NCBI RefSeq assembly: GCF_023347535.1
Contig: NZ_CP094473.1
Coordinates: 1,736,001-1,800,000, forward strand
From: Faecalibacterium sp. HTF-F
Lineage (GTDB): Bacteria > Bacillota > Clostridia > Oscillospirales > Ruminococcaceae
Direction of reading: 5' to 3'
DNA: 64,000 bases
The notes under the pieces are model-generated. The model did not search any database and was not told the DNA's origin. It saw only the letters and a list, made by a program, of their open reading frames with translations. This document shows, one piece after another, positions 1,217-29,222 of this stretch (position 1 is its first letter; every line of letters starts with the position of its first letter). The translations under genes were made by a program, and so were the position numbers.

Positions 1217-1239
1217 CTTCGGGCCAACATGGCCCGAGG
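1217..1239. repeat. ICE palindrome copy 1
   Basis: Dyad lying 4 nt after the stop of the small membrane gene (1244) and 53 nt before the relaxase start. One arm has CTC in place of TTC. Confidence 0.9.
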
Positions 1240-1243
1240 TTGT

Positions 1244-1534
1244 TTAACTTGCCAGAAACCGGTACAGAGCGGATTTGCCTCCATCCAGCGCCCAAAGAAG
1301 GGAGCCCGCCGCCGCTTGCAGTCCATACGGCGAAAGAAGGAAGGCAAGAAACAGAAATACAATCCCGCCTATGGGCGTCGGCGTGAAAAAGAGAGCGACA
1401 CCCAGCACCGCCAGGATCACAGAGGCAATCGTCAGCAGGACGGCACAAATCTCAAACAGAAACACCAGCAGAGCCGCCAGAAGGGACAGCGCCAAAGCAA
1501 AGGGAGCAACCAATATTTTCAGCAGTATCTTCAT
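1244..1534 (-). CDS. small membrane protein, CD1845 type
   Basis: Protein of 96 aa with two long hydrophobic stretches: residues about 5-50, very Leu/Ala/Val rich, and about 55-75 around PIGGIVFLFLAFLLSPYG. The tail (LLWALDGGKSALYRFLAS) is amphipathic. Small membrane proteins like this sit next to the relaxase gene in many Clostridia conjugative transposons and are usually named after CD1845; their role is unknown to me. The ATG at 1534 is chosen because AAAGGAGG lies 8 nt upstream; a TTG two codons earlier is too close to it. The gene lies between relaxase and mobC, where the opposite-strand HNH gene now interrupts the run. Confidence 0.75.
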   Translation of the reverse strand: MKILLKILVAPFALALSLLAALLVFLFEICAVLLTIASVILAVLGVALFFTPTPIGGIVFLFLAFLLSPYGLQAAAGSLLWALDGGKSALYRFLAS

Positions 1535-1631
1535 CTTCAAAACCTCCTTTATCTATCCTTTCTACCTCTATTTTATCATGCCTGCCCGGGGACATAAATG
1601 TTGCGAAAGATTAGTAAATCCTGTCCTAAAA

Positions 1632-1654
1632 CTTCGGGTCATGCTGGCCCGAAG
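1632..1654. repeat. ICE palindrome copy 2
   Basis: Copy between the CD1845-type gene and the HNH gene, just upstream of the HNH promoter's -35 region. It probably followed mobC before the HNH gene was inserted. Confidence 0.9.
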
Positions 1655-1659
1655 CTTGA

Positions 1660-1688
1660 TGGTTTTATCTAAAAAGTTATGATATAAT
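1660..1688 (+). promoter_or_regulatory. promoter of the HNH cargo gene
   Basis: TGGTTT, 17-bp spacer, TATAAT. The -10 is perfect and the -35 is weak. Palindrome copy 2 ends 5 bp before the -35, so a protein binding it could affect this promoter. Confidence 0.55.
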
Positions 1689-1722
1689 GAAATCAATATT
1701 TTGGTTAGACGAGGTGATGAAC

Positions 1723-2550
1723 ATGGGGAACAGCAGAGACGACTTTACTTCAGCAACAAAGGAATTACTGGCAAATCGGGTTGGTAGAAGATGTAGTAAT
1801 CCTGCTTGCCGAAAGTTGACTTGTGGGGCAAATACCAATCCTGAAAAAATTACAAATATAGGGGTAGCAGCTCATATCTGTGCAGCGGCTCAAGGCGGTC
1901 CACGCTATGACGATTCTATGACACCCGAAGAAAGAAAGTCGTTTGAAAATGGAATTTGGTTATGCCAGTCTTGTTCTAAATTGATTGATACGGATATTAC
2001 TCGTTATCCTAAAGAACTGCTACAAAGTTGGAAGCAGCTTGCAGAACAGACAGCAATTTTGGAAGTCGAAACTACTTCTTCCACACCTGCCTTTGAAAAA
2101 GATAAAGAGCTTGTCCAATTTTATTTGGAGTGCTTTAATCGTCCAGCCTTTCAAGATGACATTTATCAAGAAGGTCGAATGGAGGATTTTGATAAAGCGA
2201 TTGAAGATACGCTGATTGCCTTGAATACAGGGGTACTAAGAACTCGTGATGGCTCCATATTAAAACAGGCTGATGGAAAATCTTCTGTCCAAAACTCTTT
2301 ATGGAGAGAAAAACTCTATACTATCACTGATATGCTAACAGCAATTCGCAGACGATTGAAAATAGCCAAAAAGGAAAAAGCCTATTCGACATATGGCACA
2401 GGCGAAGATGTCGCTTATTGTTTCTATGATCGTGAGCTTGCTGAATGGCTTAATTCTACACGAGAAGAAATACTAAAAATTCTATCGTCTATTTGTAAAG
2501 AGGCTGGACTTCGGGAATTACATTTTCGGAAACATAGATATAGATGGTAA
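1723..2550 (+). CDS. HNH-family nuclease-like cargo protein, probable defence gene
   Basis: Protein of 275 aa. Residues 24-90 form a zinc-ribbon HNH domain: C24/C29, the AAH motif with H51, then GGPRYDDSMTPEERKSFENGIWLC with N76 and the C81/C84 pair. The same HNH type occurs at the N-terminus of anti-phage effectors such as CBASS Cap5. No SAVED domain follows here. Residues about 105-275 are helical, with ECFNRPAF and ALNTGVLRTRDG, which I cannot assign. The start is ATG 1723, with GAGGTG 6 nt upstream; ATG 1717 is an alternative. The gene is AT-rich, on the opposite strand to all conjugation genes, and has its own promoter and terminator, which marks it as acquired cargo. The defence role is inference. 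Confidence 0.7.
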   Translation: MGNSRDDFTSATKELLANRVGRRCSNPACRKLTCGANTNPEKITNIGVAAHICAAAQGGPRYDDSMTPEERKSFENGIWLCQSCSKLIDTDITRYPKELLQSWKQLAEQTAILEVETTSSTPAFEKDKELVQFYLECFNRPAFQDDIYQEGRMEDFDKAIEDTLIALNTGVLRTRDGSILKQADGKSSVQNSLWREKLYTITDMLTAIRRRLKIAKKEKAYSTYGTGEDVAYCFYDRELAEWLNSTREEILKILSSICKEAGLRELHFRKHRYRW

Positions 2551-2559
2551 AAAGAACAA

Positions 2560-3743: not shown

Positions 3744-3766
3744 CCTCGGGCCAATATGACCCGAAG
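3744..3766. repeat. ICE palindrome copy 3
   Basis: Ends 19 nt before the TTG start of the 3134-3724 gene. Two pairs are G-U wobbles in the transcript, so the RNA hairpin is preserved. Confidence 0.9.
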
Positions 3767-4257: not shown

Positions 4258-4449
4258 TTAAGACTTCGGGCCACGATGGCCCGAAGGGCGGGGCTCCACG
4301 ATCAGCGCCCGGAACTTCTTCCGGCACTGTTTTTTCTTTCCTTTGCACTCCTTGTAGTAACGGCATCCCTTACAAGGGTCGTCATTGTTCCAGCCGGGGT
4401 GCGGTACTTCCTTCATCATTCGTTCAAAAGGGCTGCTTGTAAAATTCAT
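4258..4449 (-). CDS. small Cys-rich protein ending inside a palindrome
   Basis: Protein of 63 aa with a zinc-finger-like core CKGCRYYKECKGKKKQCRKKF. The last nine residues, PSGHRGPKS, are encoded by palindrome copy 4, and the stop follows it directly. ATG 4449 is preferred (GAGGA 6 nt upstream). The gene overlaps its upstream neighbour's stop and abuts the VLP gene. Function unknown; zinc binding is inferred from the cysteine pattern. Confidence 0.6.
   Translation of the reverse strand: MNFTSSPFERMMKEVPHPGWNNDDPCKGCRYYKECKGKKKQCRKKFRALIVEPRPSGHRGPKS
4264..4286. repeat. ICE palindrome copy 4 (coding)
   Basis: Perfect 10-bp arms. It encodes the C-terminal SGHRGPK of the 4258-4449 gene and lies 6 nt from the VLP-gene start. 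Confidence 0.9.
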
Positions 4450-5099: not shown

Positions 5100-5352
5100 G
5101 GGCCGTGTCCTCCTTTTCGGGTGCCTCCGGCTTCGGGTCAGTATGGCCCGAAGCGGTAAGGCTGTTTTTGGGGTCATTCAGAAAAGCCATAAGCTGGGCG
5201 GGCGTCAGTTTGAGGGAGCGCACCGCCTGCACGATCTGGCTGTTTTCTTCCTCCTGTTTCTGCTTTTCCAGCTCCCGGATTTTGGCCTGCCATTCGGCGG
5301 CCTTCTCCCGGGCTTTTTCCAGTTCCTTATCGAGCTTGTCGATTTTGTTCAT
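5086..5352 (-). CDS. DUF4315 coiled-coil protein
   Basis: Protein of 88 aa. MNKIDKLDKELEKAREKAAEWQAKIRELEKQKQEEEN is an obvious coiled coil, followed by IVQAVRSLKLTPAQLMAFL, a signature of DUF4315 proteins in Tn1549-like modules. The C-terminus (ASGHTDPKPEAPEKED) is written by palindrome copy 5. ATG 5352 follows GGAAAGGAG. It sits between the NlpC/P60 gene and DUF4366, its usual place. Likely a small structural or regulatory partner of the transfer machine. Confidence 0.8.
   Translation of the reverse strand: MNKIDKLDKELEKAREKAAEWQAKIRELEKQKQEEENSQIVQAVRSLKLTPAQLMAFLNDPKNSLTASGHTDPKPEAPEKEDTAHEEN
5131..5153. repeat. ICE palindrome copy 5 (coding)
   Basis: Inside the 3' end of the DUF4315 gene (encodes SGHTDPK) and 31 nt before the DUF4366 start. 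One C/A mismatch in the transcript stem. Confidence 0.88.
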
Positions 5353-5374: not shown

Positions 5375-7273
5375 TCACAAACGCCCGAAGGCATAGAAAT
5401 GTGTCTGCCAGTAGCTTGAATTGATGTTTGCGTATTGGATGGGCGAACCACAATGGAGCATCATCCCGTCGCCCACATAAATCCCCACATGGGATACAGG
5501 GCCGGGGCTGTCATAGGTTCCCGTGAAAAAGATAATGTCGCCGGGCTTTGCCTCGGAGGGAGAAATGATAGCACACTGGTTGTAAATGCCCTGCGCCGTG
5601 GTACGGGGCAGGTTGTGGACGCCGCTGGCCGTGTACACCCAGCAGACAAAGCCCGAACAGTCAAAGGAGGTGGACGGGCTGGAGCCGCCCCACACATAGG
5701 GCCAGCCGATGTACTTTGTGGCTTCTTCCATGAGCGCCGCAAAAGCCGGGTCATCCAGCGCCTCGCCGGGTATCTCATAGCTGGGGCCGGTATCTTCGCC
5801 ACCGTTGTAAATCCCTTCCCACAGATAGGGTTTGTTGCCTTTGAGCTGCTGCATAACGGTGTAGATTTCCCGCTGCTGTTCGTTAAGCCTCGGCAGGATC
5901 ACGGCAGGCAGCGTCTTGTTTGTGAGGGTCACATTGAGAATGTAATACTCATAGGGAACTTCCTCGGTGGTGGTTTCCCCGGTCTCCGGGTCGGTGCTGG
6001 TTTCGGTGCGGTAGCGTATCTCGACTTCCTCCGTCAAGGTCAGTTCATACTGTGCCTCGAAAATCTCCCGCAGCTCGTCCTGCACCTGTTCACGGAAATA
6101 CACATGGTACTTTGCCGAGAGATAGGACGCCAGCTCATAGGGGTTATGGCCGATCTCGTCCACGGAATAGCGGTACTCGTCATAGCCGGGATGGGTGCTT
6201 TCGATGTTCGCTACCGTCTGCGCCAGCTCGTTTTCCAGCGCTGTGTAGTCCTCGTCCACCCCCAGCAGGTCCGTATCCTCCGAGGCGTAGGAGGTGCCGG
6301 ATAACACATTGGCGAGGCCGCTGCCAAGCGTGGGGAAGATGGAACTTACCGCCGACACAAGAAAACAGAGCAGCAACAGCAGGAGCAGGACCAGCACCGC
6401 CACGGGATGACGGGTCACAAACTGCGCCGCCCGACGGGTCGCAGTTCCCGAAGCGGCAGCGGTTTTCTTTGCGGCCTTTGCGCCCTGTTTTGCAGCCGCC
6501 TTTGCTTCTTTGGAATACCGGCGTTTCAGTTTCCATTTCTGCTGCGCACGGGAAAGCGGATTGCTGGCAAGCTCCGGGTGATCGGAGGCCATCTTTTGAA
6601 AATCCACATTGGCCCGGGCTTTTATGTCCTTCCGTTCCCACTTTGCCACCTTCCGGGCCGGGTGTTCCCGGTATCTCCGTTTGGCATACCGGGTCAGTTT
6701 CCGGGCTCCGGCCTCGGCCACAAGTTCCGACTTATGGGCTCCTTCCACACCCACATTTTCATGCTCAACTTCGTGGATTTTGTTGTGGAGATAAAACCAT
6801 GCTTCGGTGCGGGCTCCCCGGACTGCCTTTTTTGCAAGCCCCGGCGGCTTCTTCGCTGCCCGTTTTGCCTCGGTCTTGTCCAGTTTCTCCCGGGCCTTTC
6901 CCAGCTTTTCCCCGGCGTGTTCCGCTTTTGCCTGTGCTTTCTGGTACTTGTCCTTTTTGCTCCCGGCCTTCTCGGCGGAGCCCTCCGGCTCCTGTGCCTT
7001 GCCGGTATCCTGCGGCCCGCCCGCTTCATCTTCCTGCCTCATGCGGTCAGAGGGACGGCTTTTCCGGCTGTCCTCTTGAAACTTGCCGCTTTTGGACTTC
7101 GGGCCATCATGGCCCGAAGGACTGTCCTGCCCGGTATCCTCGTTCTTAAACCGCAGGCGTCGGGATGGTGCGGGGGAAGGCCCTTCCCGTTCAGCCGGTC
7201 CGGGGCGATTGCTCCCGGTATCCTCCGTCGGCCCCGGCCTTTGAAAATTCCGTTTATCCGGTTTCTTTCCGAT
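5375..7273 (-). CDS. NlpC/P60 peptidase of the conjugation machine (CD1108-like)
   Basis: About 632 aa. A long basic, Ala/Lys-rich cytoplasmic region (residues about 1-290) precedes one transmembrane helix (PVAVLVLLLLLLLCFLVSAV). An extracellular stalk domain follows. At the C-terminus is an NlpC/P60 domain with catalytic Cys in FDCSGFVCWVY and His in VSHVGIYVGDGMMLHC. It would open peptidoglycan at the transfer channel, the VirB1/Tgl role. Coding continues beyond ATG 7042 to an AGGAGG site at 7282-7286. The only codon at proper spacing (8 nt) is ATC 7273, so either AUC is used or the start lies elsewhere. Palindrome copy 6 is inside the reading frame. Confidence 0.82.
   Translation of the reverse strand: MGKKPDKRNFQRPGPTEDTGSNRPGPAEREGPSPAPSRRLRFKNEDTGQDSPSGHDGPKSKSGKFQEDSRKSRPSDRMRQEDEAGGPQDTGKAQEPEGSAEKAGSKKDKYQKAQAKAEHAGEKLGKAREKLDKTEAKRAAKKPPGLAKKAVRGARTEAWFYLHNKIHEVEHENVGVEGAHKSELVAEAGARKLTRYAKRRYREHPARKVAKWERKDIKARANVDFQKMASDHPELASNPLSRAQQKWKLKRRYSKEAKAAAKQGAKAAKKTAAASGTATRRAAQFVTRHPVAVLVLLLLLLLCFLVSAVSSIFPTLGSGLANVLSGTSYASEDTDLLGVDEDYTALENELAQTVANIESTHPGYDEYRYSVDEIGHNPYELASYLSAKYHVYFREQVQDELREIFEAQYELTLTEEVEIRYRTETSTDPETGETTTEEVPYEYYILNVTLTNKTLPAVILPRLNEQQREIYTVMQQLKGNKPYLWEGIYNGGEDTGPSYEIPGEALDDPAFAALMEEATKYIGWPYVWGGSSPSTSFDCSGFVCWVYTASGVHNLPRTTAQGIYNQCAIISPSEAKPGDIIFFTGTYDSPGPVSHVGIYVGDGMMLHCGSPIQYANINSSYWQTHFYAFGRL
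7097..7119. repeat. ICE palindrome copy 6 (coding)
   Basis: Perfect copy lying within the upstream part of the NlpC/P60 frame, encoding SGHDGPK. Confidence 0.88.
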
Positions 7274-7294
7274 GATGTATCCCTCCTTTCCAAA

Positions 7295-7317
7295 CCTCGG
7301 GCCATCATGGCCCGAAG
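7295..7317. repeat. ICE palindrome copy 7
   Basis: Lies 4 nt after the VirB4 stop and about 21 nt before the NlpC/P60 start. Confidence 0.92.
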
Positions 7318-7321
7318 TGCG

Positions 7322-9715
7322 TTATGCCCGGTTCATTTCCTGTTTTTTGTCCTCCGGGCGGGTGGTCATAATGGCGTACAGCTCGGTATTCTGCGGGAAG
7401 CGGTCAACAAACGGGATGGTGGTATTCCCGAAGAACAGCAGCCCTTCGCCGGAATTGGTATGGGTCACATAGGAAAGCTGGTGGGGGCTGATCCCAAGCT
7501 GTTTGGCTAAAATCTGCCGGTCCCCCTGTGCCTGCGAGAGCAGCACAAGGAAGTCCGAGTTTTCAAAGATGTTCTCGATCTCCGGGCTTGCCAGAAAATC
7601 CTTCACGTTCTGCGTTAAAGCACTGGGAACGCACCCTTTTTTTCGCAGCATTTTCCAGATCGCCACACAGTAGCTTGCCGTCAGCCGGTCACGGAGCAGC
7701 ACATGGAACTCGTCGAAGTAGCACCATGTAGCGATACCGCGGAGGAAATTCATGGACACCTGTGAGTTTACCAAGTCCTGCATAATGAGCATGGCAATCG
7801 TCCGAAGCCCGGCCCCCAGCTTTTTTAAGTCAAGGCATACCAGACGGCGGTTTAAGTCCACATTGGTTTCATGGTTGAACACGTTAAGGGAACCCGACAC
7901 ATAGATTTCAAGGGCAGTTGCCAGCCGTACCGCCTCGCCCTCCGGCTGGGAACAGAGCAGGTCATACAGGGTTTGGAGGGTCGGCATTTTGCTTGTTTCC
8001 GGGTCCTGCAAATGTTCCCGGTACATCTGGCGTACACAGCGGTCAATGACGGTCCGCTCCACCGGCTGCAAGCCATCCTTGCCGCCAACGATTAGCTCCA
8101 TCAGCGACAGGATAAAGTCGGCTTTCAGCGCCATCGGGTTTTCCTCGTCAAAGCTCAGGTCAATGTCCATCGGATTGATGTGGTGGGGGCTGTCCGGGGC
8201 GATCTCGATGACCTGTCCGCCCAGCCGCTTGATAAGGGGCGAGTATTCGCCCATCGGGTCCACCACAATGATCCGGTCACGGGTGGCAAGGAACACGTTC
8301 ACAAGCTCCCGCTTTGCGGCAAAGGATTTGCCGGAGCCCGGCACGCCGAGGAACAGGCCGTTGGGGTTTTTGAGCTTTTTCCGGTTTGCCATGATGACGT
8401 TATGGGAAAGTGCGTTGAGCCCGTAATAGACGGCTTCGCCATCCATGCGGAGCTCCTGCGTCATAAAGGGAACGAAAATGGCCGTGGAGCTGGTCGTCAT
8501 GCCGCGCTTGATCTCAATGCCGTTATGGCCCAGCGGAAGGCTGGAAAGAAAACCATCCTCCTGCTGGAAGTCCAGCCGCTTCAAGGTGCAGTTGTATTTC
8601 TGGACGATACCCGACACCGTGAACAGGTCATTGTCCAGCTCCCGGCGGGTCGGGGCCATGTTTACCACAAGGAAGGTCAGAAGGAACATTCGCTCATTCC
8701 GGCTCTGTAAATCTTCCAAGAGGGTCTTTGCGTCGTTGCTGTACGTTACAAGGTCGGGTGGAAGTATGTCCATGTCGTACCCTGACCGGGCTGCCTTCTT
8801 TTGTTCCTCCACCTTCATCTTGTCAATGTCGGAGACTTTGGCCTTGATGGATTTTACGGCGGCGGCCTGATCGACGGTTTGGATATGGAGAGTGATGGTC
8901 ATTTCCGCATCCATTTCCAAAAGCTCCGCCAGCAGCTTGTCCGAGAGCTCCGAGGCCAAAATCTGCAAGTAGGAGGCGGCACCCCAAGTCGTCCCCACCC
9001 GGAACAGACGGCTGAAACGGAAGTCGAAGCTGTCCGGGGCGATAAAGTCTTTGGTGGAAAGCCCGGTTTTGGGGATCATATCCCATGAAAACCGGAAGGG
9101 GGAGCCGCTGCCGGGGTGGAGCTGCCCGTGAAGAAGCTCCAGCCGTTCCAGCCCCGAAAGGGAGCGGCACTTGACGCCCAGCTTTTTGAAGTTCCCGCAA
9201 ATGTCCGCCTCTACACGTTCCAGCCTTGCCCTGGCGGTGGGAAGGTCGTCCACATTCACGCCGAAGGTCAGGAGCTTTGTGCGGACAATGCCGTTGTTGC
9301 TTTTGGCGATCTGGTTTTCCAGCATTTCCACATACTCACACCGGACGCTGTTGTAATCATCGTCCTGCATGGGGATGTTCACGCTGTACCGGCTGCCCGG
9401 GCGGCTCCGGTGGTTGAGGAAGGAAAGCTGGAACGGAAGGCTGCTGTCAAAGTAGTTGAGGCAGGCGCTCCACCCGTCAAAGATGGCTGCCTGATCTTCG
9501 GACTGTGCGAGCTGGTAGTTGATGTCCTCGTATTCAATGGTTTTGGTGTAATAGCGGTCCGCTACCCGGCACACGCCGTCCCGGTACATTTCCCGGTAAG
9601 GGAGGGTCTGCTGGGCGGTGGTGGGAATGTTCTTTCCTTTCGTGAACAGGCCGGTAAGGCCCTGTTTTTCAGGCTTTCTGCCTGCGGGCTTTCCGGCCCT
9701 TCTGCTGTTTCGCAA
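7322..9715 (-). CDS. virB4: VirB4/TraE-type conjugation ATPase
   Basis: About 797 aa, the energising ATPase at the cytoplasmic base of the type IV secretion channel. The N-terminal domain (DRYYTKTIEYEDINYQLA onward) is typical of Gram-positive VirB4. Walker A GVPGSGKS lies near residue 457, followed by RIIVVDPMGEYSPLI. Walker B CYFDEFH is near residue 667, then LTQNVKDFL and FLVLLSQAQGDR. The length is full. TTG 9715 fits AGGAGG 9 nt upstream and makes the gene overlap the end of prgI, as is common. A further in-frame ATG at 9781 would overlap prgI more. Confidence 0.93.
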   Translation of the reverse strand: MRNSRRAGKPAGRKPEKQGLTGLFTKGKNIPTTAQQTLPYREMYRDGVCRVADRYYTKTIEYEDINYQLAQSEDQAAIFDGWSACLNYFDSSLPFQLSFLNHRSRPGSRYSVNIPMQDDDYNSVRCEYVEMLENQIAKSNNGIVRTKLLTFGVNVDDLPTARARLERVEADICGNFKKLGVKCRSLSGLERLELLHGQLHPGSGSPFRFSWDMIPKTGLSTKDFIAPDSFDFRFSRLFRVGTTWGAASYLQILASELSDKLLAELLEMDAEMTITLHIQTVDQAAAVKSIKAKVSDIDKMKVEEQKKAARSGYDMDILPPDLVTYSNDAKTLLEDLQSRNERMFLLTFLVVNMAPTRRELDNDLFTVSGIVQKYNCTLKRLDFQQEDGFLSSLPLGHNGIEIKRGMTTSSTAIFVPFMTQELRMDGEAVYYGLNALSHNVIMANRKKLKNPNGLFLGVPGSGKSFAAKRELVNVFLATRDRIIVVDPMGEYSPLIKRLGGQVIEIAPDSPHHINPMDIDLSFDEENPMALKADFILSLMELIVGGKDGLQPVERTVIDRCVRQMYREHLQDPETSKMPTLQTLYDLLCSQPEGEAVRLATALEIYVSGSLNVFNHETNVDLNRRLVCLDLKKLGAGLRTIAMLIMQDLVNSQVSMNFLRGIATWCYFDEFHVLLRDRLTASYCVAIWKMLRKKGCVPSALTQNVKDFLASPEIENIFENSDFLVLLSQAQGDRQILAKQLGISPHQLSYVTHTNSGEGLLFFGNTTIPFVDRFPQNTELYAIMTTRPEDKKQEMNRA

Positions 9716-10076: not shown

Positions 10077-10099
10077 CTTCGGGCCAGCATGACCCGAGG
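10077..10099. repeat. ICE palindrome copy 8
   Basis: Abuts the stop of the 10100-10720 gene and ends 21 nt before prgI. Confidence 0.92.
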
Positions 10100-10739: not shown

Positions 10740-10762
10740 CTTCGTGCCAGCATGGCCCGAGG
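10740..10762. repeat. ICE palindrome copy 9 (divergent)
   Basis: The most diverged copy (CGTGCCA in one arm). It abuts the stop of the SpoVG-like gene and ends 19 nt before the next start. Confidence 0.85.
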
Positions 10763-11419: not shown

Positions 11420-11442
11420 CTTCGGGTCAGCATGGCCCGAAG
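11420..11442. repeat. ICE palindrome copy 10
   Basis: Lies 4 nt after the VirB6 stop and 15 nt before the SpoVG-fusion start, directly against its ribosome site. Confidence 0.92.
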
Positions 11443-12450: not shown

Positions 12451-12496
12451 TTATGTGTGATAAAGAAGTAATAGAAGTGTAAAAAATTTTGCCGTT

Positions 12497-12529
12497 CCTA
12501 TCCGGCACTTAGCTCTTGTGTCGGATAGG
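12497..12529 (-). terminator. hairpin after serine recombinase
   Basis: 12-bp stem CCTATCCGGCAC/GTGTCGGATAGG with one wobble and a 9-nt loop, downstream of the recombinase stop. A T-rich run follows about 12 nt later in the transcript. Confidence 0.6.
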
Positions 12530-12537
12530 TCGGGCGG

Positions 12538-14148: not shown

Positions 14149-14259
14149 AAAATCCTCCGTTTCCGACAGCCAGCCCCACTATTCCGTACCTTGATTGTAC
14201 CACATGGGGCGGCTGTCTGTATAGCGGCAAAAGCGTCAAATCTGCTTCTTTATGGTCGG

Positions 14260-16042: not shown

Positions 16043-16244
16043 TGTCCCTGTCCTCCTTTTTCCGGCGTTTGGAGTAGTAGCGGGGGCAGAGTATGATAAC
16101 CGCCCGGAAGCTCTGCTTGCAGCTATGGGTACAGCCCCGACAGAGGTCGTTGTATGTGATACGGTCGCAGGTGGTATTCCCGACTTTCACTTGCCGCAGG
16201 AAAAAAGACCATTCCAGCCGCCGTTTCTTGCTCATTCTTGGCAT
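16032..16244 (-). CDS. small Cys-rich protein of mobilizable element
   Basis: Protein of 70 aa: KKRRLEWSFFLRQVKVGNTTCDRITYNDLCRGCTHSCKQSF, then a basic tail. The cysteine pattern (C, CRGCTHSC, C) suggests zinc binding. The same small protein is usual between the relaxase and initiator genes of this element group, but its role is unknown to me. Its end overlaps the start of the initiator gene by 11 nt. Confidence 0.62.
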   Translation of the reverse strand: MPRMSKKRRLEWSFFLRQVKVGNTTCDRITYNDLCRGCTHSCKQSFRAVIILCPRYYSKRRKKEDRDNGR

Positions 16245-16428
16245 GGGTGCGCTCCTTTCTGCCGTTTCCGCTGGTGTGACGGTATCGGCGGTAATTCTGT
16301 ATCATCTCGGTATCATTTTCGGGGTTTTTCTGCCCTGTAAGCCCGTTAAAAAATCCTTTGGTATTGCGGATAGGGTACGGGGCAGCCCCCTTGTTCGGTA
16401 TGGGTTCGGGTACATTTTGGGGTGGTTT

Positions 16429-18051
16429 TTATCGATCCTGTTCCTGCCTTTTCACAGGCTTGCGTTCCCGGCGTAAAATCTGGTCGATATTGCCCTTGAC
16501 AGTCTGTAAGCGGCGGTATTCCTCCCGTTTTGCCCGGTAATCGTTGTAGCCGCTGTTTTTCTCTTTGATAAGGGTTTCAATCTCTGCTTGCAGGGCTTTA
16601 TGGCTCGGCAGCTTGGAAATGCCGTTCTCCCTGAAATAGCGGGCGGCTGCGTCTGCTATAATAAAGTCGCTTTCGTGCTTCTGACGGTAGGCTGCTTTTG
16701 CTTTGGCGTTTTTCTGCTGTTTCAGCCCGTCCCGGACAGGGCGGGTCTTGGAATAGGCAAGCACCTGCCGTTGCAGCTCCTTTTTTCCGTTCAGCGTCTT
16801 TTCCACCTGCTTCAGCTCTGCAAGGCTTTCCTGCATGGTGGTATAAGCGGCAAAACAGACTTCGTCCAGTTCCTCCGGGGAAGAAAAGCCGTACTGCTGA
16901 TAGGCGGTAACGGTAGCCGCCATTTGCTTTAGATTGTGCTTTGCCGCCCAACGGTCATAGCCCACGCCCTTGCCCTCGGCTCGCTTTGCTTCCCGGTCAA
17001 CCATGCGCTGCAAGGTGTTGTCTGCCGGGGTGGTTTTTGTGGTTTTTTCCCCTTGTGACAGCTTTTTAACTGCGGCAGGGTATTCGGGTATGGCTTTGCT
17101 CTGTTCGGCGGCTCTGTGGGCGTTCTGCGTGAGCAGGGCAAGGACAGCAGCCTTGTCAAAATCGTCCCCCAGCTTCCGGGCTGTGATAGGCTTTGTCCTG
17201 TCCGGCGTGAGGTAGGAAAGCCGCCCCCGGCTCTCCTTGACGGTCACACCCTCCCGCAGCAAAAGGGAAGAAAATTCGTCAAAGCTGGTAGCTTGGGAAA
17301 GTGCCTGCCGTATCGTCCGGCGCAGCTTCGCCTTGTCCGTTTCAAACTTGGTGGGCTTGGTCGGCTGTCCTGCGGCTTCTCTGGCAGCGTTCTCTTTATC
17401 AAGGGCAAGCTGCCCTTTCTTTGCCGCCCAGTATTCCCGTTCCGTTATCCGTTCCTTGCTGCCGTTCAAAAGGTCGATTTGGTAAAGCCCCTCCCGGTGG
17501 CACATCTCCATGACTTCACTCTTGAAATATTCCATAGCGGCATTGGTGCAGCGGTGCTTGCAGCCCTCCCGTGTGTCGGCTGGTCTGTCCATGTAGGGCA
17601 GAAGCGGGACTTCATAAATCCGCAGGGAGTTGATGACGATATGCACATGGATATTGCCGCTGTGGTTATGCCCGTCCGGGTGGGTGCAGACTAAGGCTTG
17701 GTGTCCGGGAAAATGCTCTTTACAGAACTGCTCGCCCAGCTCCTGCGCCCGGTCTACGGTCAAGCCGTTGTCTGTCCCGTCCCGTGGGTCAAAGCTGATG
17801 ATATAGTGGTGGCTTTTCACATCTTCCCGTTTTTGGTTTTTCTCATAGTGGAGATTGGCTCGCATACAGGAAACGGCGAAATCCTCGCCCCCGCAGTTGA
17901 GGGAAGAAATGCGGTAATCCTCCCTCGGTATCAGCCGCCCGTTTTCATCAAGGGTGGGCTTCATGGTAAACTCGTCATGCTCAAATGTGAGATAGGCTTC
18001 CGCTGCGCCATAGTCAGCATTTTTAGAGCTGATATGTTTGAATGTTGCCAA
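16429..18051 (-). CDS. relaxase of nested element (MobA/MobL family)
   Basis: About 540 aa. The family start (A)TFKHISSKNADYGAAEAYLTFEHDEFTMKP lines up with TTG 18051 as first codon. GTG 18060 is an alternative. The MobL core contains NLHYEKNQKREDVKSHHYIISFDPRD and the metal-binding histidines HNHSGNIHVHIV near residue 140. The second half is helical, with GVGYDRWAAKHNLKQMAATVTAYQQYG, which resembles the same region of the ICE relaxase, so the two are distant relatives. It overlaps the end of the mobC-like gene. It would mobilise the nested element independently of the ICE's own oriT. Confidence 0.92.
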   Translation of the reverse strand: MATFKHISSKNADYGAAEAYLTFEHDEFTMKPTLDENGRLIPREDYRISSLNCGGEDFAVSCMRANLHYEKNQKREDVKSHHYIISFDPRDGTDNGLTVDRAQELGEQFCKEHFPGHQALVCTHPDGHNHSGNIHVHIVINSLRIYEVPLLPYMDRPADTREGCKHRCTNAAMEYFKSEVMEMCHREGLYQIDLLNGSKERITEREYWAAKKGQLALDKENAAREAAGQPTKPTKFETDKAKLRRTIRQALSQATSFDEFSSLLLREGVTVKESRGRLSYLTPDRTKPITARKLGDDFDKAAVLALLTQNAHRAAEQSKAIPEYPAAVKKLSQGEKTTKTTPADNTLQRMVDREAKRAEGKGVGYDRWAAKHNLKQMAATVTAYQQYGFSSPEELDEVCFAAYTTMQESLAELKQVEKTLNGKKELQRQVLAYSKTRPVRDGLKQQKNAKAKAAYRQKHESDFIIADAAARYFRENGISKLPSHKALQAEIETLIKEKNSGYNDYRAKREEYRRLQTVKGNIDQILRRERKPVKRQEQDR

Positions 18052-18421
18052 CAGCGTCACCCACTTTCTGCAAGACTTCAAACTTTAGGGCAGCAAGGTC
18101 GGAAAACGCCGCCCGTACCTCCCCGGCAAGCTGCGGGTAGGGGCTGTGCCACTCGTTCAGCGTCCGGGCTATCTGGTTTAAGTTGCCGCCGATCCTGCCG
18201 TATTCGGCGGTCAGCTTCCCAACAGCGGCAAGCAGCTCATCATTGACGGGAGAAACGGTTATGATGGGGCGTATGGCTGCCCCGGTTATGGCTTGCCGGA
18301 TAAACTCGGCTTGGCTCATGTTGTAGGCAGAAAGCCTTTCTGCAAACTCGGCGTATTCTTCCTCGGTCATGCGTGTCTTGACTACCCGGCTGCGGTGCGG
18401 CGTGTTGTATCGTTTTCGCAT
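18023..18421 (-). CDS. mobC: MobC-like protein of nested element
   Basis: Protein of 132 aa. A basic N-terminus (MRKRYNTPHRSRVVKTRMTEEEYAEFAERLSAYNMSQAEFIRQAI) of ribbon-helix-helix character is followed by GRIGGNLNQIARTLNEW, the MobC hallmark. It would bind the oriT that probably lies just upstream (18480-18711). The relaxase gene overlaps its end by 29 nt in another frame, so the two are likely coupled. Confidence 0.87.
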   Translation of the reverse strand: MRKRYNTPHRSRVVKTRMTEEEYAEFAERLSAYNMSQAEFIRQAITGAAIRPIITVSPVNDELLAAVGKLTAEYGRIGGNLNQIARTLNEWHSPYPQLAGEVRAAFSDLAALKFEVLQKVGDAVGNIQTYQL

Positions 18422-18531
18422 GGTAAAACCTCCTTTCTGTGCGTGGTGTCCTCTCACTAATAGGAGAAAAACGGGGTGTGAAGCGGAACTGTTTTTGAAA
18501 AATCCGAAAAAATATTTTGAGGGATTTTTAA

Positions 18532-18576
18532 GCGGCGCAAGCCGCATAAGCAGGGTTTGGGGAAGGCACTCCCCAA
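18532..18576. other. candidate oriT: two adjacent hairpins upstream of mobC
   Basis: A perfect GCGGC-GCAA-GCCGC stem-loop (18532-18545) is followed by a TTGGGGA/TCCCCAA stem-loop (18557-18576). Paired inverted repeats directly upstream of mobC and relaxase genes are the usual form of oriT in mobilizable elements. No nick site was identified. Confidence 0.5.
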
Positions 18577-18636
18577 CAAGATTCCCGCAGGGGCAAAATG
18601 AGCGAAAAGCGAATTTTGGTACTGCGGTAGAATCTT

Positions 18637-18711
18637 GCTCTAAAAAACTACCGCTTTCCTCGCTCTAAAAAACTACCGCTTTCCTCGCTCTAAAAAACTA
18701 CCGCTTTCCTC
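18637..18711. repeat. three perfect 25-bp tandem repeats (iterons)
   Basis: Copies at 18637-18661, 18662-18686 and 18687-18711, each starting GCTCTAAAAAACTACCGC. Tandem, spacerless and identical, they look like initiator or relaxosome binding iterons. They lie beside the oriT-like hairpins and in an element that encodes a replication initiator. Confidence 0.85.
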
Positions 18712-18908
18712 GGCGGCTCTGGTTTGCGGATATACTGGCTTGCTCCACCAATATAGCGATTGCGGCGGCGTGTTCTGCCCGCTGTTCACCACTACAACGG
18801 TGAAAAGGGGTCGTTTTGGCAAACGCAGCGGAAATTTTTTTGTTTTTCCTGTCTGCTCCCTACAACAATCCGGCGGTGTGGTTTGCCAAAGATTTTTGAA
18901 AATGGGCG

Positions 18909-18944
18909 CAAAAAAAGCAGTAAACCTTTTCAAGATTTACTGCT
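18909..18944 (-). terminator. intrinsic terminator after the 19002-19412 gene
   Basis: Perfect 9-bp stem AGCAGTAAA/TTTACTGCT, followed in the minus-strand transcript by a run of T residues. It separates the sigma/cargo genes from the mobilisation genes. Confidence 0.85.
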
Positions 18945-19001
18945 TATCTGCCGCTGTGATGGGCGGCGGTATTAAATTGTCAGCCGTTTTTCAAATGGAA
19001 T

Positions 19002-19412
19002 TTATCTGCAATCGCTTTCTTTCCGCTTTCCAATTCCTTTTCTGTAATCTTCCATAATCCTAACGCAATGATCTGCTATCTTTTGCATTCCGAGTTCTTC
19101 AAAAAAGGCAATTTGTATTTTCATCAGTTCTTCACAAACAGTCAACTTCTGCTCATCCATATTGCTAATAGCAAGCCATGGGAACGCTTTATATTTCTTA
19201 GTGTCCCCAATGAGAAAATTGTACCCTATCAACTCATTTTCACGGAAAACGAAATAGAATTGTGGGCCTGAACCTGGAACTGACTTTTCCATAATTTGCT
19301 GCATTGTTCTCACGCCGCCGTATGCCGGAAAAAAACCTATTCGCTCAAGAGCATTTAATATGTCAATCCTTTTATCTGTGGGTATGTCTCTATAATTGAT
19401 AATCTGTTCCAT
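19002..19412 (-). CDS. hypothetical protein, weakly GNAT-like
   Basis: Protein of 136 aa, AT-richer than its neighbours. The segment QFYFVFRENELIGYNFLIGDTKKYKAFPWLAISNMDE has the alternating beta pattern of an acetyltransferase fold. The second half is helical (ELMKIQIAFFEELGMQKIADHCVRIMEDY). I do not recognise the family, and the usual GNAT acetyl-CoA loop is not obvious. ATG 19412 has GAGGG upstream; ATG 19427 does not. It is followed by a strong terminator and may be cargo of the nested element. Confidence 0.5.
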   Translation of the reverse strand: MEQIINYRDIPTDKRIDILNALERIGFFPAYGGVRTMQQIMEKSVPGSGPQFYFVFRENELIGYNFLIGDTKKYKAFPWLAISNMDEQKLTVCEELMKIQIAFFEELGMQKIADHCVRIMEDYRKGIGKRKESDCR

Positions 19413-19469
19413 TTGCTCTACCCTCATTGAAGTTTAATTTGTCAGGCTCTAATTATACAACTTTTCTGT

Positions 19470-19667
19470 TTAGCGGTCAAAGCGGAACTTCAACAGGCTT
19501 TCTATCAGTTGCCTGACGATATGCTCCTGCATATCCGTGTTAATCTGTCCGTCCATTTTCGCACAAGAGCGGACATATCCCGCATAATGGGATAGGACGG
19601 CGGCAACAGCTTCCGGGTCGCCCTCGCTTGCCTTAACGATTGTCTCATAGGGAAGTAGCTGGCTCAT
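19470..19667 (-). CDS. small helix-turn-helix protein (conjugative-transposon type)
   Basis: Protein of 65 aa: LLPYETIVKASEGDPEAVAAVLSHYAGYVRSCAKMDGQINTDMQEHIVRQLIESLLKFRF. This matches the small HTH protein encoded beside a sigma-like factor in Tn916-like and Tn4451-like elements. It overlaps the end of the sigma-like gene by 23 nt. It probably works with that protein in controlling element genes. Confidence 0.75.
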   Translation of the reverse strand: MSQLLPYETIVKASEGDPEAVAAVLSHYAGYVRSCAKMDGQINTDMQEHIVRQLIESLLKFRFDR

Positions 19668-20103
19668 AGGACAAACCCTCCAACTCTGCCCGTAGCCGCC
19701 GTAAAATCATCTGAATACGCCGCCCGGTTGTGTTGCCAGCCCGTCCATATCTCCGTCCAATCTCCCTATGCGTCAATCGTTGGAAGTAGTACAAGAAAAT
19801 GATTTCCTGTTCCATCTGTGATAGTGCGGACAGGGCTGCGGCAAGCTCTGGACTTTCCAAAAGCACCATCTGACCACAGACGAAAAGCGGATAGCTGGTC
19901 ATGCCGGATTGCTCCGCAAAGTATTTATCTGTGGTACTGAATGGATAGTGTTTTTCTTCTATCAGATATTCAAGCGAGATTTCCCGCTTGCGGCGGCTCC
20001 GTATGCTCCGGGCTGCGTCTATGGCAGCGTGGCGAATAACAGTCTTGCAAAAGGCATCGTGTGTATGCCGGATATGTTCTTGATACTTTTCGTGTTCGGT
20101 CAT
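19645..20103 (-). CDS. sigma-70-like regulator of mobile element
   Basis: Protein of 152 aa. RHAAIDAARSIRSRRKREISLEYLIEE resembles the region 2 part. The C-terminal half, LSQMEQEIIFLYYFQRLTHREIGRRYGRAGNTTGRRIQMILRRLRAEL, is a clear region 4 helix-turn-helix. This is the conjugative-transposon sigma-like family that usually partners the small HTH protein. ATG 20103 has a good ribosome site. Likely a regulator of element transcription. Confidence 0.8.
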   Translation of the reverse strand: MTEHEKYQEHIRHTHDAFCKTVIRHAAIDAARSIRSRRKREISLEYLIEEKHYPFSTTDKYFAEQSGMTSYPLFVCGQMVLLESPELAAALSALSQMEQEIIFLYYFQRLTHREIGRRYGRAGNTTGRRIQMILRRLRAELEGLSYEPATSL

Positions 20104-20192
20104 GGAAAATCCCCCTTTCTGAATAATGGCAGAGGGCGGCAGCATCTTGTGCTGTCGCCCTCTTGATTACCGAACAGCAAAGACGGGCGGGG

Positions 20193-20238
20193 CTGTCAAC
20201 GGCGGCGCATTTGCGCCGTTCATCTTGACCGTTGACAG
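20193..20238. other. nested hairpin downstream of the anti-sigma gene
   Basis: An outer stem CTGTCAACGG/CCGTTGACAG encloses a 7-bp CGGCGCA/TGCGCCG hairpin. It follows the anti-sigma stop (20262). Without a T-run it may be an RNA structure or a protein site. Confidence 0.5.
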
Positions 20239-20261
20239 GCTCGGCTGGGTTTGCTATCTGC

Positions 20262-20975
20262 TCACGGCAATTCACTCTCATTGATAGGAATTGCCTCAAG
20301 TTCCGTATTCAAATTGTTCCAATAAGAGCCGATATCCGCACTTGTGAAATACTTAAAACCGCCTGCTGCTGACTTCAATTCGCCGTTTTTAACCCCATAG
20401 CAGGCGTAAATCAAATCGTAGCTTGTTCCATCTGAGAGGTTAAATCTAAAGCTGGTCACATCTGCTCCGGCAGTTTCCTCAGTCGTTTTGTCTTTTAGGG
20501 ATAAGCCCTTGAACTTATCATACAGGGTCTTTATATCATTTTCAGCAACAACTACTTTCTTTTCTGCTGATGCAGGCACTCCGTCATAGTGGTACATTTC
20601 AACGTTTTCGACATCTTCAACCTCAAATGGGAAGTCGATTTTGACAGGCTCATAAGCAATGTTTATAGGTAACAGAAAGAGAGCTGTAAAAATTGCAATG
20701 ATACAAAGAGCGATGGAAACGAGAACAGCAATCGTTATCTTTTTTCTGCCTCTCTGCTTTTCTTTTGCCTCATGGCGCATAATAACGCTTTCGCTTTCTT
20801 CGTGAAGAACATCTTCGCTCGTGTGAGAAAGCAATTTTTGATAAATTGCGTTACAGTCAGCACAGGCGTTCAAATGCTCTTTTACCATCTCTGCGCTTGC
20901 TTCGCTGCAAGCACCGTCAACATACAGCGGAAGAATATCTCGAACAATATCGCATTGTTTACTCATGCTTTTCAT
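20262..20975 (-). CDS. anti-sigma factor with zinc-finger (zf-HC2-like)
   Basis: About 237 aa. The N-terminal anti-sigma zinc finger has CDIVRDILPLYVDGACSEAS and HLNACADCNAIY (H-x3-C-x2-C). A single transmembrane helix follows (ITIAVLVSIALCIIAIFTALFLLP). The roughly 130-residue outer domain (VEMYHYDGVPASAEKKVVVAENDIKTLYDKF) is otherwise unrecognised. It overlaps the upstream sigma gene by 17 nt, the usual coupled arrangement, and would hold that sigma factor at the membrane until a signal is sensed. Confidence 0.85.
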   Translation of the reverse strand: MKSMSKQCDIVRDILPLYVDGACSEASAEMVKEHLNACADCNAIYQKLLSHTSEDVLHEESESVIMRHEAKEKQRGRKKITIAVLVSIALCIIAIFTALFLLPINIAYEPVKIDFPFEVEDVENVEMYHYDGVPASAEKKVVVAENDIKTLYDKFKGLSLKDKTTEETAGADVTSFRFNLSDGTSYDLIYACYGVKNGELKSAAGGFKYFTSADIGSYWNNLNTELEAIPINESELP

Positions 20976-21444
20976 CCATCCTTTCTTGAATTTTTAGCTT
21001 TGCACGATGATAAGTAACTCTCGCCCATGATTCTGTTTTTCCAAAAATTGCAGCGATTTGTGAAAAAGATAGTTCCCCGAATACGCGAAGCTGAAAGACT
21101 TCTTTGTATGGTTCTTCCAAACGGTGAAGAACGAGGTGTATGCGGAACGCCATGTCAGAATCTGCAACTGAGTTCTCAACATTTTCATTTGATGGCAAGT
21201 CATTGATTTCACTCACATCAGCTACTCGCTGACGGCTTCGCATTTCATCATGGTAAAGGTTTTTTGCTATGGAGCAGAGCCATGTCAATTCATCTGACTT
21301 ACCTTTGAATTGTGATGTTGTAGAAACAGCCTTATAGAATGTGTTCTGCGTGATTTCCTCTGCTATCTCACGATTTTTGGCAAGAGAAATAGTATACGAG
21401 TATACCTGTAAATAGTAGGCTTTATAGAGCTTTTCATAGTCCAT
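20959..21444 (-). CDS. ECF sigma factor
   Basis: Protein of 161 aa. Region 2: YKAYYLQVYSYTISLAKNREIAEEITQNTFYKAVSTTSQFKGKSDELTWLCSIAKNLYHDEMR. Region 4: LEEPYKEVFQLRVFGELSFSQIAAIFGKTESWARVTYHRAKLKIQE. ATG 21444 is preferred because AAGGAGG is 11 nt upstream; ATG 21453 is too close. It is the first gene at the right end of the nested element and forms a pair with the anti-sigma gene. Targets unknown. Confidence 0.9.
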   Translation of the reverse strand: MDYEKLYKAYYLQVYSYTISLAKNREIAEEITQNTFYKAVSTTSQFKGKSDELTWLCSIAKNLYHDEMRSRQRVADVSEINDLPSNENVENSVADSDMAFRIHLVLHRLEEPYKEVFQLRVFGELSFSQIAAIFGKTESWARVTYHRAKLKIQERMDEKHE

Positions 21445-21732
21445 ACTTGTCATCACCTCCTTCAGCTTCATAGGTTAGACGGAGAAATCGGAATTTCGTT
21501 ACAAAGAAGTTTGAAATTATTATACCTTTACGCTACTCTTGCTTTGTGCGGACTATTGGTAGACGCGCATTAACGGCAAGTAAAGAGATTGCTGTGTCAG
21601 CTTGATATGTTCAAATGCTAATTAAGTATAGCATACAGCTATGAATTTTTCTATTGCGTTCCCCTGACTTCGGAATAGTGGCAGGGCTGGCTATCCTTGT
21701 TTTGCTTTGTGCTTCTCTACCGTACATGAGCA
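21445..21732. other. right-end intergenic region of nested element
   Basis: About 290 nt between the ECF gene and the right attachment core. I see no gene. It probably holds the ECF operon promoter and the attachment arm. Confidence 0.4.
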
Positions 21733-21737
21733 TTTGC
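21733..21737. repeat. attachment-site core, right copy
   Basis: TTTGC, matching 12446-12450. Here it joins the element's right end to the 5' half of maff2. Confidence 0.8.
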
Positions 21738-21923: not shown

Positions 21924-21946
21924 CTTCGGGTCATCATGGCCCGAAG
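21924..21946. repeat. ICE palindrome copy 11
   Basis: Abuts the virD4 stop (21947-21949) and is followed by the terminator hairpin. Confidence 0.92.
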
Positions 21947-24304: not shown

Positions 24305-24327
24305 CCTCGGGCCAATGTGGCCCGAGG
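24305..24327. repeat. ICE palindrome copy 12
   Basis: Both arms carry the CTC/GAG variant, so the second base pair is changed compensatorily. It lies 1 nt after the 24329 gene's stop. Confidence 0.92.
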
Positions 24328-25367: not shown

Positions 25368-25390
25368 CTTCGGGCCATGCTGGCCCGAAG
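25368..25390. repeat. ICE palindrome copy 13
   Basis: Perfect arms, 2 nt after the ardA stop and about 20 nt before the likely start region of the next gene. Confidence 0.92.
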
Positions 25391-27539: not shown

Positions 27540-27600
27540 TGGTTGAACCTCCATTTCTGTTTTGGTTTAGGGAAAAGCAAGGTATCGCCTAACCCCTCCG

Positions 27601-27620
27601 CCCCTTCCCCCGGGAAGGGG
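27601..27620. other. short GC hairpin
   Basis: CCCCTTCCC/GGGAAGGGG stem with a 2-nt loop, directly before the long inverted repeat. Confidence 0.6.
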
Positions 27621-27624
27621 AACG

Positions 27625-27790
27625 GCTCTGGAGAATTTATATCCCCGTCGCTTGATCGGGAAAAAGCATAACCGGGAGAAATCCGTCAAGGGTGCCTCTG
27701 GCACCGCCTGCGGCGGCGCTGCCCTTGACTGATTTTCCCGGCTATGCTACGGAATAACTGGCGACGGGGAATAATTTATATCTCCAGAGC
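27625..27790. other. long imperfect inverted repeat, possible structured RNA or origin
   Basis: Arms 27625-27693 and 27721-27790 pair in blocks: GCTCTGGAGA with TCTCCAGAGC, CCCCGTCGC with GCGACGGGG, and GTCAAGGG with CCCTTGAC, with partial pairing between. Two small stems, GGTGCC-TCT-GGCACC (27691-27705) and CCGCC-TGC-GGCGG, sit in the tip. There is no gene in the 27540-27848 gap. The size and block conservation suggest a folded RNA or a recombination or replication site. Confidence 0.7.
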
Positions 27791-27818
27791 TTCGGGGCGC
27801 GGGGCAGAGCCCAGCAAT

Positions 27819-27841
27819 CCTCGGGCCACGTTGACCCGAAG
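27819..27841. repeat. ICE palindrome copy 14
   Basis: Lies 7 nt after the parB-like stop. Two wobble pairs in the transcript. Confidence 0.9.
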
Positions 27842-27848
27842 TTTCGGC

Positions 27849-29222
27849 TTACTTTTCCTGTTCGTTTTTCTTCTCCGGCTTTTCGTGTTCCCTCTGCTGG
27901 CCCTTCCAGTCGTCCAGCAGCTTGATGATCTGGTCCTTCATTTCCCTCGGCGTAGTTTCCTTGCCGAAATACTTGCTCAGTTCCGCACCTGTCAAAATCA
28001 CTTTGTCTACCTCCTTTTTGTCCTCCATCATAATGCCGTCGATCACATCCCCGTTGAGCAGCTTCTTTTCGTCCAACTCACGCATACGCTTTGCCTGCGC
28101 CTGTGAAGGCGAGGACTGCTGGCTGTCAATGGCGACGGCGATATAGTTCTGGTTCTTCTTGCCGATATAGGAAAGCTCCACCGCCGTAGTAAAACCCAGC
28201 TTTTTTTCATCCATCAGCTTCATCAGGTCTGGAACCAGCTCATTGAGACGGATATACCGCTGCACCTGCTTGACCGCCATCTTATTGCGCTCGGCTACAA
28301 TTTCGTTGGAGCGTTTTCCTGCGTCCTTCGGGTCAATCTGGCCCGAAGTGCGGGAGCCCTGGTGCTTGATGGCCTCAAGCTGCATTTTCAAGGCTTTGGC
28401 CCGCTCACTGGGGAGGATTTCTTCACGCTGGTTGAGATTGTCCTCGACCATCTGCGTGATGGCTTCATCGTCCGTCAGATTGCGAACAATACAGGGCATA
28501 TCCGCATATCCGGCAAGCTCGCTGGCCTTCTGGCGGCGGTGGCCGGACACGATCTCATAGCCGCCATCCTCACGGGGACGGACGATAGCGGGCTGGGTCA
28601 CGCCCTTGTCCTTGACGCTGGACACCATAGCCCGCATTTCTTCATCATCCCGAACCTCAAAGGGATGGTTCTTGAAGGCGTGAAGCTCGTTCAGCTTGAT
28701 ATAGACGATCTGTTCCTTGCCCCGGCGTGGTGCATCCTTCGGTTTTTCGGGTTCCTTCGGAGCGGGAGCGGCCTGTACCGTTGGCGCCGTTTTTTTCTCC
28801 GGTTCCTTTTTGACCGCATTTTCCGGTTTCTGTGCGGGAGCTTCGGGCTTCGGGGTTGCGGCCTTGTCCTTATCTGCTTTCGGGGGACGGCCCCGGCGCT
28901 TCGGCTGTTCCGGCTCTTTGTGTTTTTCCTCCGCTTTCTTCGGAGCCTCCGGCTGCTTTTCCGGTTTTTCCGTTTTTGCCGGGGCAGGCTTTTCCCCGCT
29001 GGGAGCTGCCGCCCGTTCCTCGACCTTCTTTTCCTTCATAATTTCAGCGAAGTTATAGACGGAAACCTGCGGGTTCTTTACCTCCGGTTCCGTCTTTTTT
29101 TCCGGCTCCGGAGAAACGGAAACCTTCTCCGGCTCTTTTGGGGGAGCGGGAGGCGTTTCCTTGCCCGGCCCGCTATCCGTTACCGGCTGTTCCGGCGTTT
29201 TTGTGGTTTTATCATCTGCCAT
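27849..29222 (-). CDS. ParB/Spo0J-like DNA-binding protein with long disordered N-terminus
   Basis: About 457 aa. Residues 1-180 are Pro/Lys/Glu-rich and likely unstructured, with an AT-hook-like KRRGRPPK. The ParB nuclease-like domain follows (IVYIKLNELHAFKNHPFEV, MVSSVKDKGVTQPAIVRP, YEIVSGHRRQKASELAG), then MVEDNLNQREEILPSERAKALKMQLEAIKHQG and an HTH (VAERNKMAVKQVQRYIRLNELV). Palindrome copy 15 lies in frame between these parts (RTSGQIDPKD). ATG 29222 has AGGAGG 9 nt upstream. Such genes begin the conjugation region of Tn1549-like ICEs and may maintain or regulate the element. Confidence 0.87.
   Translation of the reverse strand: MADDKTTKTPEQPVTDSGPGKETPPAPPKEPEKVSVSPEPEKKTEPEVKNPQVSVYNFAEIMKEKKVEERAAAPSGEKPAPAKTEKPEKQPEAPKKAEEKHKEPEQPKRRGRPPKADKDKAATPKPEAPAQKPENAVKKEPEKKTAPTVQAAPAPKEPEKPKDAPRRGKEQIVYIKLNELHAFKNHPFEVRDDEEMRAMVSSVKDKGVTQPAIVRPREDGGYEIVSGHRRQKASELAGYADMPCIVRNLTDDEAITQMVEDNLNQREEILPSERAKALKMQLEAIKHQGSRTSGQIDPKDAGKRSNEIVAERNKMAVKQVQRYIRLNELVPDLMKLMDEKKLGFTTAVELSYIGKKNQNYIAVAIDSQQSSPSQAQAKRMRELDEKKLLNGDVIDGIMMEDKKEVDKVILTGAELSKYFGKETTPREMKDQIIKLLDDWKGQQREHEKPEKKNEQEK
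28326..28348. repeat. ICE palindrome copy 15 (coding)
   Basis: Within the parB-like gene, encoding TSGQIDPK in the same phase as the other coding copies. Confidence 0.88.

Follow-up and report, generated by a model that had tools for sequence, protein, structure and literature searches.

Dispersed 23-bp palindromes of a Faecalibacterium integrative and conjugative element as probable parS-like sites of its own ParB

The window analysed here is a stretch of 64,000 nucleotides from Faecalibacterium sp. HTF-F (contig NZ_CP094473.1, positions 1,736,001 to 1,800,000), which includes part of an integrative and conjugative element (ICE) with copies of a 23-bp palindrome at many of its gene junctions. 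We propose, with a probability of about 0.85 and from comparison of sequences, that these palindromes are dispersed parS-like sites for the ParB protein encoded by the ICE itself. Covariation between residues of the protein and bases of the site lends strong support to the binding of ParB to the palindrome, and points to the helix-turn-helix (HTH) of an element's ParB as the reader of that element's palindrome.

Palindrome copies and the ParB of the ICE

An earlier note on the window had listed 15 copies, and all of them were recovered, each with no more than 3 mismatches from CTTCGGGCCA-N3-TGGCCCGAAG (23 bp); 100 dinucleotide shuffles gave no match at this threshold. The whole genome holds 18 copies, all at contig positions 1729043-1764348, which corresponds to window -6957 to 28348 (about 36 kb, one ICE), with three of them to the left of the window (-6957, -6388 and -308). 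None was found at unrelated chromosomal loci and, as the note had reported, none lies in the nested element (12451-21737) or in the chromosome beyond 30 kb. Perfect 10-bp arms are present in 5 of the 18 copies, and the sense-strand arm mismatches of all 18 comprise 8 A.C, 8 G.T and one other. The copies in the window and the parB features are as follows.

1217..1239, no strand, palindrome 5′ of the relaxase gene (named by reading), 4 nt past the stop of a 98-aa open reading frame (ORF)
1632..1654, no strand, palindrome upstream of the 98-aa ORF
3744..3766, no strand, palindrome immediately before the ribosome site of a 196-aa ORF (orf196)
4264..4286, no strand, palindrome in the 3′ end of a 65-aa gene, read as SGHRGPK
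5131..5153, no strand, palindrome inside an 88-aa gene (orf88), read as SGHTDPK
7097..7119, no strand, palindrome in an open frame into the NlpC/P60 gene, read as SGHDGPK
7295..7317, no strand, palindrome 4 nt past the virB4 stop
10077..10099, no strand, palindrome 0 nt past a stop, before a 128-aa PrgI-like gene (named by reading)
10740..10762, no strand, palindrome 0 nt past a stop, before a DUF7007 gene
11420..11442, no strand, palindrome 4 nt past the stop of a VirB6-like gene (named by reading), before a SpoVG/LPD26 gene
21924..21946, no strand, palindrome 0 nt past the virD4 stop
24305..24327, no strand, palindrome 1 nt past a stop, with changes in both arms, as the earlier note had rightly said
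25368..25390, no strand, palindrome 2 nt past the stop of an ArdA-family gene
27819..27841, no strand, palindrome 7 nt past the parB stop
28326..28348, no strand, palindrome inside parB, at the 5′ edge of the HTH codons; the same place in the related ICE G127, 477 nt from the gene end
27849..29228, minus strand, parB, 459 aa, with Pfam ParB_N and with model and PDB matches; proposed reader of the palindromes
28239..28331, minus strand, codons of the two modelled HTH helices (residues 300-330), of which R306, V319 and K320 covary with the site

The description of most copies as following a stop codon by 0-7 nt applies to 9 of the 15 window copies; three others lie within coding sequence (that of parB for 28326, those of small genes for 5131 and 4264) and a fourth (7097) within the open frame running into the NlpC/P60 gene. 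Stop and start distances rest on the 18 copies of this ICE read by eye. That sites lie between a stop codon and a ribosome site probably means no more than that a gene-dense element leaves room there. In and near the stretch from mobC to the VirB6-like gene, 3 of 7 junctions with a site have a gap of only 42-44 nt, while at 6 neighbouring junctions without a site the genes overlap or lie 12-22 nt apart. Other sites are instead encoded within coding sequence in one tolerated frame; the four copies in coding or open frames share a common reading frame, SG[HQ]xx[DG]PK.

The ICE ParB has a long low-confidence N-terminal part followed by the ParB_N domain (PF02195, E 2.4e-19) and the HTH, and its PDB matches, ParB, Noc, Spo0J and KorB, indicate a ParB fold. 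The AlphaFold2 model has a mean predicted local distance difference test score (pLDDT) of 69.9, with block means of 83-94 over most of ParB_N and the HTH. R306 falls in the helix 300-314, and V319-K320 open the helix 319-330, the recognition helix. Among long ParBs the G[HEA]RR motif is present in 23 of 23 and a P-motif-like pattern in 16 of 23.

Palindrome types and kept junctions in related elements

A match with at most 2 mismatches was found in 33 of 199 genomes, that of HTF-F included, some of which hold a single match only. From at least 426 confirmed VirB4 relatives, 80 surrounding loci were scanned. Every typed element uses a single palindrome throughout, and each lineage has its own. 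By consensus the loci were assigned to types B (39), A (13), C (7), A′ (4), D (4) and E (1), those with fewer than 2 sites being typed as none (12 of 80). The half-site is CTTCGGGCCA in type A, CTTYGGGACA in B, CTTCTGGACA in C, CTTCTGGYCA in D, GTTGTGGACA in E and CTTCTGGCCA in type F, which was found later than the typing of the 80 loci. In all, these loci contain 574 sites, compared with none in one block-shuffle per locus, and a strict scan of the typed loci longer than 20 kb (n = 37) gave 4-16 sites each, with a median of 10. Of the VirB4 relatives near 60% identity (n = 10), 9 had no site and one (L131) a single off-type match. A plasmid search yielded 349 records, all below 60% identity and none covering 80% of the query.

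Palindrome sites are kept in related ICEs, and they are kept at particular junctions, counted in those relatives that were assigned to types A, A′, B and C. A site follows virB4 (copy 7295 in this ICE) in 59 of 61 relatives and virD4 (copy 21924) in 31 of 31; one lies in or near orf88 (copy 5131) in all 37 where the gene was found, and one precedes the PrgI-like gene (copy 10077) in 54 of 61. No site was found inside virB4 (0/61) or inside virD4 (0/31), and outside type B a site is present in or just after parB in 7 of 7. Untyped loci score 1/12 after virB4, 0/10 in or near orf88, 0/5 after virD4 and 0/11 before the PrgI-like gene, low values that are due in part to their having been typed as none for holding fewer than 2 sites. 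Automated distances are unreliable in the relatives, in which 229 of 481 sites fall within predicted ORFs, probably owing to start calls that lie too far upstream. Spacing is more even than in at least 95% of random choices of junctions at 16 of 26 loci, which are related and not independent; such regularity is easier to reconcile with loading points along the element than with promoter operators.

A class-wide search, with a match in 75 of 391 genomes, revealed shorter members of this ParB family, with 72 residues before the G[HEA]RR motif as against about 247 in the long ones. Many of these have a single 23-bp palindrome within the parB gene itself, on the 5′ border of the HTH codons. Such an intragenic site is present in 76 of 106 distinct short ParBs and in 0 of 106 codon-shuffled controls, and where the locus is at least 9 kb it is the only site (8/8). 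The long type A and A′ ParBs are accompanied by 4-18 sites in 14 other stretches, the low numbers being those of partial stretches; the type B loci L088, L092 and L093 scored 1 copy because their best 'intragenic' repeat is spurious. The LTSxQVxxK stretch of the short-family ParBs is the translated palindrome, and its conservation may consequently reflect DNA rather than protein. The HTF-F genome itself encodes a second, short ParB beside a ParA (G000:C1:119256-120969, L287), with one intragenic palindrome of different sequence.

Covariation between ParB residues and palindrome bases

The HTH of ParB differs among palindrome types, and all copies of an element switch together, which suggests a trans-acting protein. 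Residues are numbered here 160, 173 and 174, corresponding to R306, V319 and K320 of the ICE ParB, following our own alignment to a ParB sequence. Arg at 160 is found with G at half-site position 5 in 29 of 29 cases, and G5 without Arg in 5 of 56 (Fisher p 6e-18). Lys or Arg at 174 is found with G at position 7 in 36 of 36, against 0 of 45 without (p 8e-24), and Asp at 174 with G8 in 11 of 11, against 0 of 74. These p values are nominal, as the rows are related. In Caulobacter ParB, R173 contacts base 1 of parS (PMC7383237); our own alignment places this residue at V319.

The same links emerge from 79 nonredundant protein-site pairs, taken from 120 with C9/G15 among 139 with at least 8 of 10 arm positions paired, and consisting of the intragenic sites of short ParBs and a few of long ParBs; these tables include L088, which the position counts above and the tree leave out. 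The top mutual-information links are those of residue 174 with position 8 (z 17.1), 160 with position 5 (15.6) and 174 with position 7 (15.6). At position 5 the pairings are R160-G5 24/24, Q160-A 4/4, E160-C 4/4 and T160-T 6/6, and at position 8 N174-C8 18/18 and D174-G8 11/11. In 77 of 79 genes, counted by locus where the HTH could be placed, the palindrome does not run past codon 160, such that the covarying residues are not encoded by it there and the link is no coding artefact. Shared descent was considered on a tree of 89 ParBs built without the HTH, whose rows include up to 11 long ParBs labelled by their element-wide rather than intragenic sites. R160 changes 21 times on this tree; among supported independent pairs, R160-G5 changed in the same direction in 11, in the opposite direction in none and was unchanged in 3, and the corresponding numbers for K/R174-G7 are 10, 0 and 0.

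Predictions for the ParBs of types D and E were also written before looking, and that for type D held (GKLS, MSVK). Rules frozen beforehand passed 49 of 51 checks on new ParBs from a phylum-wide draw, namely 19 of the 21 positive checks and all 30 of the weak, negative ones (17 non-Arg, 13 non-Lys/Arg). The positive checks comprise R160-G5 (2/3), K/R174-G7 (4/5) and residue 174 to base 8 (13/13). The newly drawn set omits four loci of places already seen (by hand) and the locus of the ICE itself, and contains one HTH twice (L353 and L369). When the consensus of the element was derived without ParB (37 loci), the rules fitted position 5 in 37 of 37 and positions 7-8 in 36 of 37; these loci belong to types A, A′, B and C, which had helped to suggest the rules, and 15 further loci gave no consensus. 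For L207, T5 and GA at 7-8 were predicted and were found in 1 of 3 candidate repeats, 10 nt past the parB stop.

Several observations weigh against the proposal. Two junctions are poorly kept, the site after the VirB6-like gene (copy 11420) being present in 35 of 53 relatives and in none of the 7 of type C, and that before orf196 (copy 3744) in 24 of 51. No site was found inside or just after the parB genes of type B (0/15), and in 10 of the 26 loci, 6 of them type A or A′, spacing is no more even than random. K160 pairs with T5 in only 12 of 16 and L160 with T5 in 6 of 10 of the 79-pair set, which suggests that residues other than Arg specify base 5 loosely. The type E prediction was half right, with GKKS non-Arg as expected and Thr-Gly in place of Asn-Tyr. 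Only 20 of the 26 newly drawn rows had a usable site; L363, with R160 and no G5, is a real miss, and the other failed check belongs to L347, whose best inverted repeat departs from the family form and is spurious, which voids the one check it passed (one of the two R160 passes). In residues 291-310, which include R306, the model reaches a confidence of only 58-73. The 23-bp site is longer than the 16-bp Noc-binding site (NBS). A regular expression written for the motif that binds ParA had no match in long or short ParBs and is therefore of no help.

Role of the bound ParB and alternative explanations

Plasmid RK2 has about 12 dispersed OB sites, the operators of KorB, and OB is 13 bp, unlike the 23-bp palindrome of the ICE. 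KorB of RK2 is a ParB-family CTP clamp that loads at its operators, slides and silences distant promoters (PMC11790492), and such loading and sliding are known in the ParB family (PMC12704722, PMC11790492). By this family precedent the ICE ParB would bind each 23-bp site as a dimer, with one HTH per half-site, load there as a CTP clamp and then slide; many loading points could spread the protein over the whole transfer region. The most likely outcome, by analogy with KorB and BisD, is that bound ParB controls the expression or the nucleoprotein state of the ICE.

The ICE ParB resembles KorB in sequence (E 1.6e-6) and fold, and both have many dispersed sites in one mobile element (18 in the ICE). 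KorB differs in working with a partner, KorA, and the ICE sites differ in that most of them occupy gene junctions, at intervals of about 1.5 kb in the viewed loci, and that they follow an HTH code. BisD of ICEclc is a ParB-domain protein that regulates ICE genes (PMC7423338) and is named among CTP-dependent regulators (PMC12704722). It works with BisC in a proteobacterial element that also has a gene called parA, and the accessible part of that account describes no dispersed junction sites. Noc is likewise a ParB relative outside parAB with many scattered sites (NBS, 16 bp; PMC12704722); these are chromosomal, serve nucleoid occlusion and have another sequence and length. In B. subtilis the cognate site parS-359 is located within parB (PMC4442127), as in the ICE family, and its sequence is a different one. 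A literature search (titles and abstract openings, most subscription papers and all preprints lying outside it) found no description of these palindromes or of the site-bearing ICE ParB family.

The earlier note had offered three explanations, of which an operator for an ICE regulator fares best: the palindrome appears, from covariation, to be the site of an ICE-encoded DNA-binding protein, ParB, and the regulatory role is argued by analogy. A possibility that ranks second is that the same sites and protein keep the excised ICE stably inherited or compacted, with no ParA of its own and perhaps with host factors. It would suit the ParB family, whose short members often stand beside ParA with one site, and the tendency of the sites towards even spacing. 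ParA was found beside 28 of 47 short ParBs by tblastn within about 1.5 kb and beside 4 of 11 by PF13614 (G000, G518, G293 and G230). For the long ParBs, in contrast, PF13614 gave no ParA within 30 kb on the same contig (0/9; some contigs end nearby, and other ParA families were not searched), tblastn gave none at 13 loci, and one sub-threshold PF13614 match lies 38 kb from the long ParB of G200. The long ICE ParBs differ in this from ParABS of B. subtilis, a chromosomal system with ParA. One or a few sites are, moreover, enough for known partition. We prefer regulation to maintenance because no ParA was found and because the clamps of mobile elements, KorB and BisD, regulate.

Operators of another ICE regulator are very improbable. 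Genes for an XRE protein, a SpoVG-domain protein and a MobC/NikA protein are present in the ICE; the XRE protein does not track palindrome type, elements of types B and C having one that is A-like, and was rejected as the reader. Hardly more credible are RNA hairpins that protect, process or insulate mRNAs between cistrons. The order of stop, palindrome and ribosome site and the compensatory changes across lineages would be expected of hairpins, but the 449 arm mismatches in 481 distinct sites, taken on the virB4 strand, comprise 202 of A.C type, 200 of G.U type and 47 others, and an equal share of A.C and G.U disfavours pairing in the transcribed strand; sites within coding sequence and covariation with a DNA-binding HTH argue in the same direction. 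Least probable of all is that repetitive extragenic palindrome (REP)-like or miniature inverted-repeat transposable element (MITE)-like repeats have spread in one ICE lineage. The many near-identical copies confined to the ICE would suit such a spread; against it, there is no scatter over chromosomal loci (18/18 copies in the one ICE), the sites are often evenly spaced and switch in concert with ParB, and several junctions have kept theirs in ICE G127, although its proteins share only 43-77% identity with those of this ICE.

Apart from parB at its right end, the ICE encodes a relaxase, a serine recombinase and proteins like VirB4, VirB6 and PrgI, all of them named from reading, and, by Pfam, a VirD4-type coupling protein and MobC/NikA-like, NlpC/P60, ArdA-family and SpoVG-domain proteins. 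On the minus strand at 6995-7330, the open frame that runs into the NlpC/P60 gene extends from the virB4 stop; it has a strong ribosome site and no usual start codon near it (ATC and ATA are candidates). Within the same gene an imperfect inverted repeat, CCTGCGCCGTGGTACGGGGCAGG, at 5590-5612 is kept in the related ICEs G027 and G006. A protein judged by eye to be HNH-like is encoded at 1723-2550 (plus strand). To the left of the window, at -5867 to -858 (plus strand), lie cargo genes read as an ABC transporter, a permease, a sensor kinase and a response regulator, among which there are no palindromes.

Returning to the sites as addresses of the ICE ParB, the findings together lean towards a mobile-element ParB family in which the cognate site lies inside parB beside the codons of the reading helix, protein and address diverging together under a near-deterministic code. 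In one ICE clade, with a long N-terminus and no ParA, the site would have multiplied into some ten or more spaced copies, mostly at junctions, and a partition system would have become a ParB coat that covers the whole element and controls it. As sites can be predicted from the ParB sequence, the claim is cheap to test. If true, it would yield, from natural examples that come ready paired, a residue-to-base code by which ParB specificity can be read, name a likely regulator and its target sites for an ICE clade in many gut Clostridia, and open a comparative route from a partition ParB to an orphan, element-wide one.

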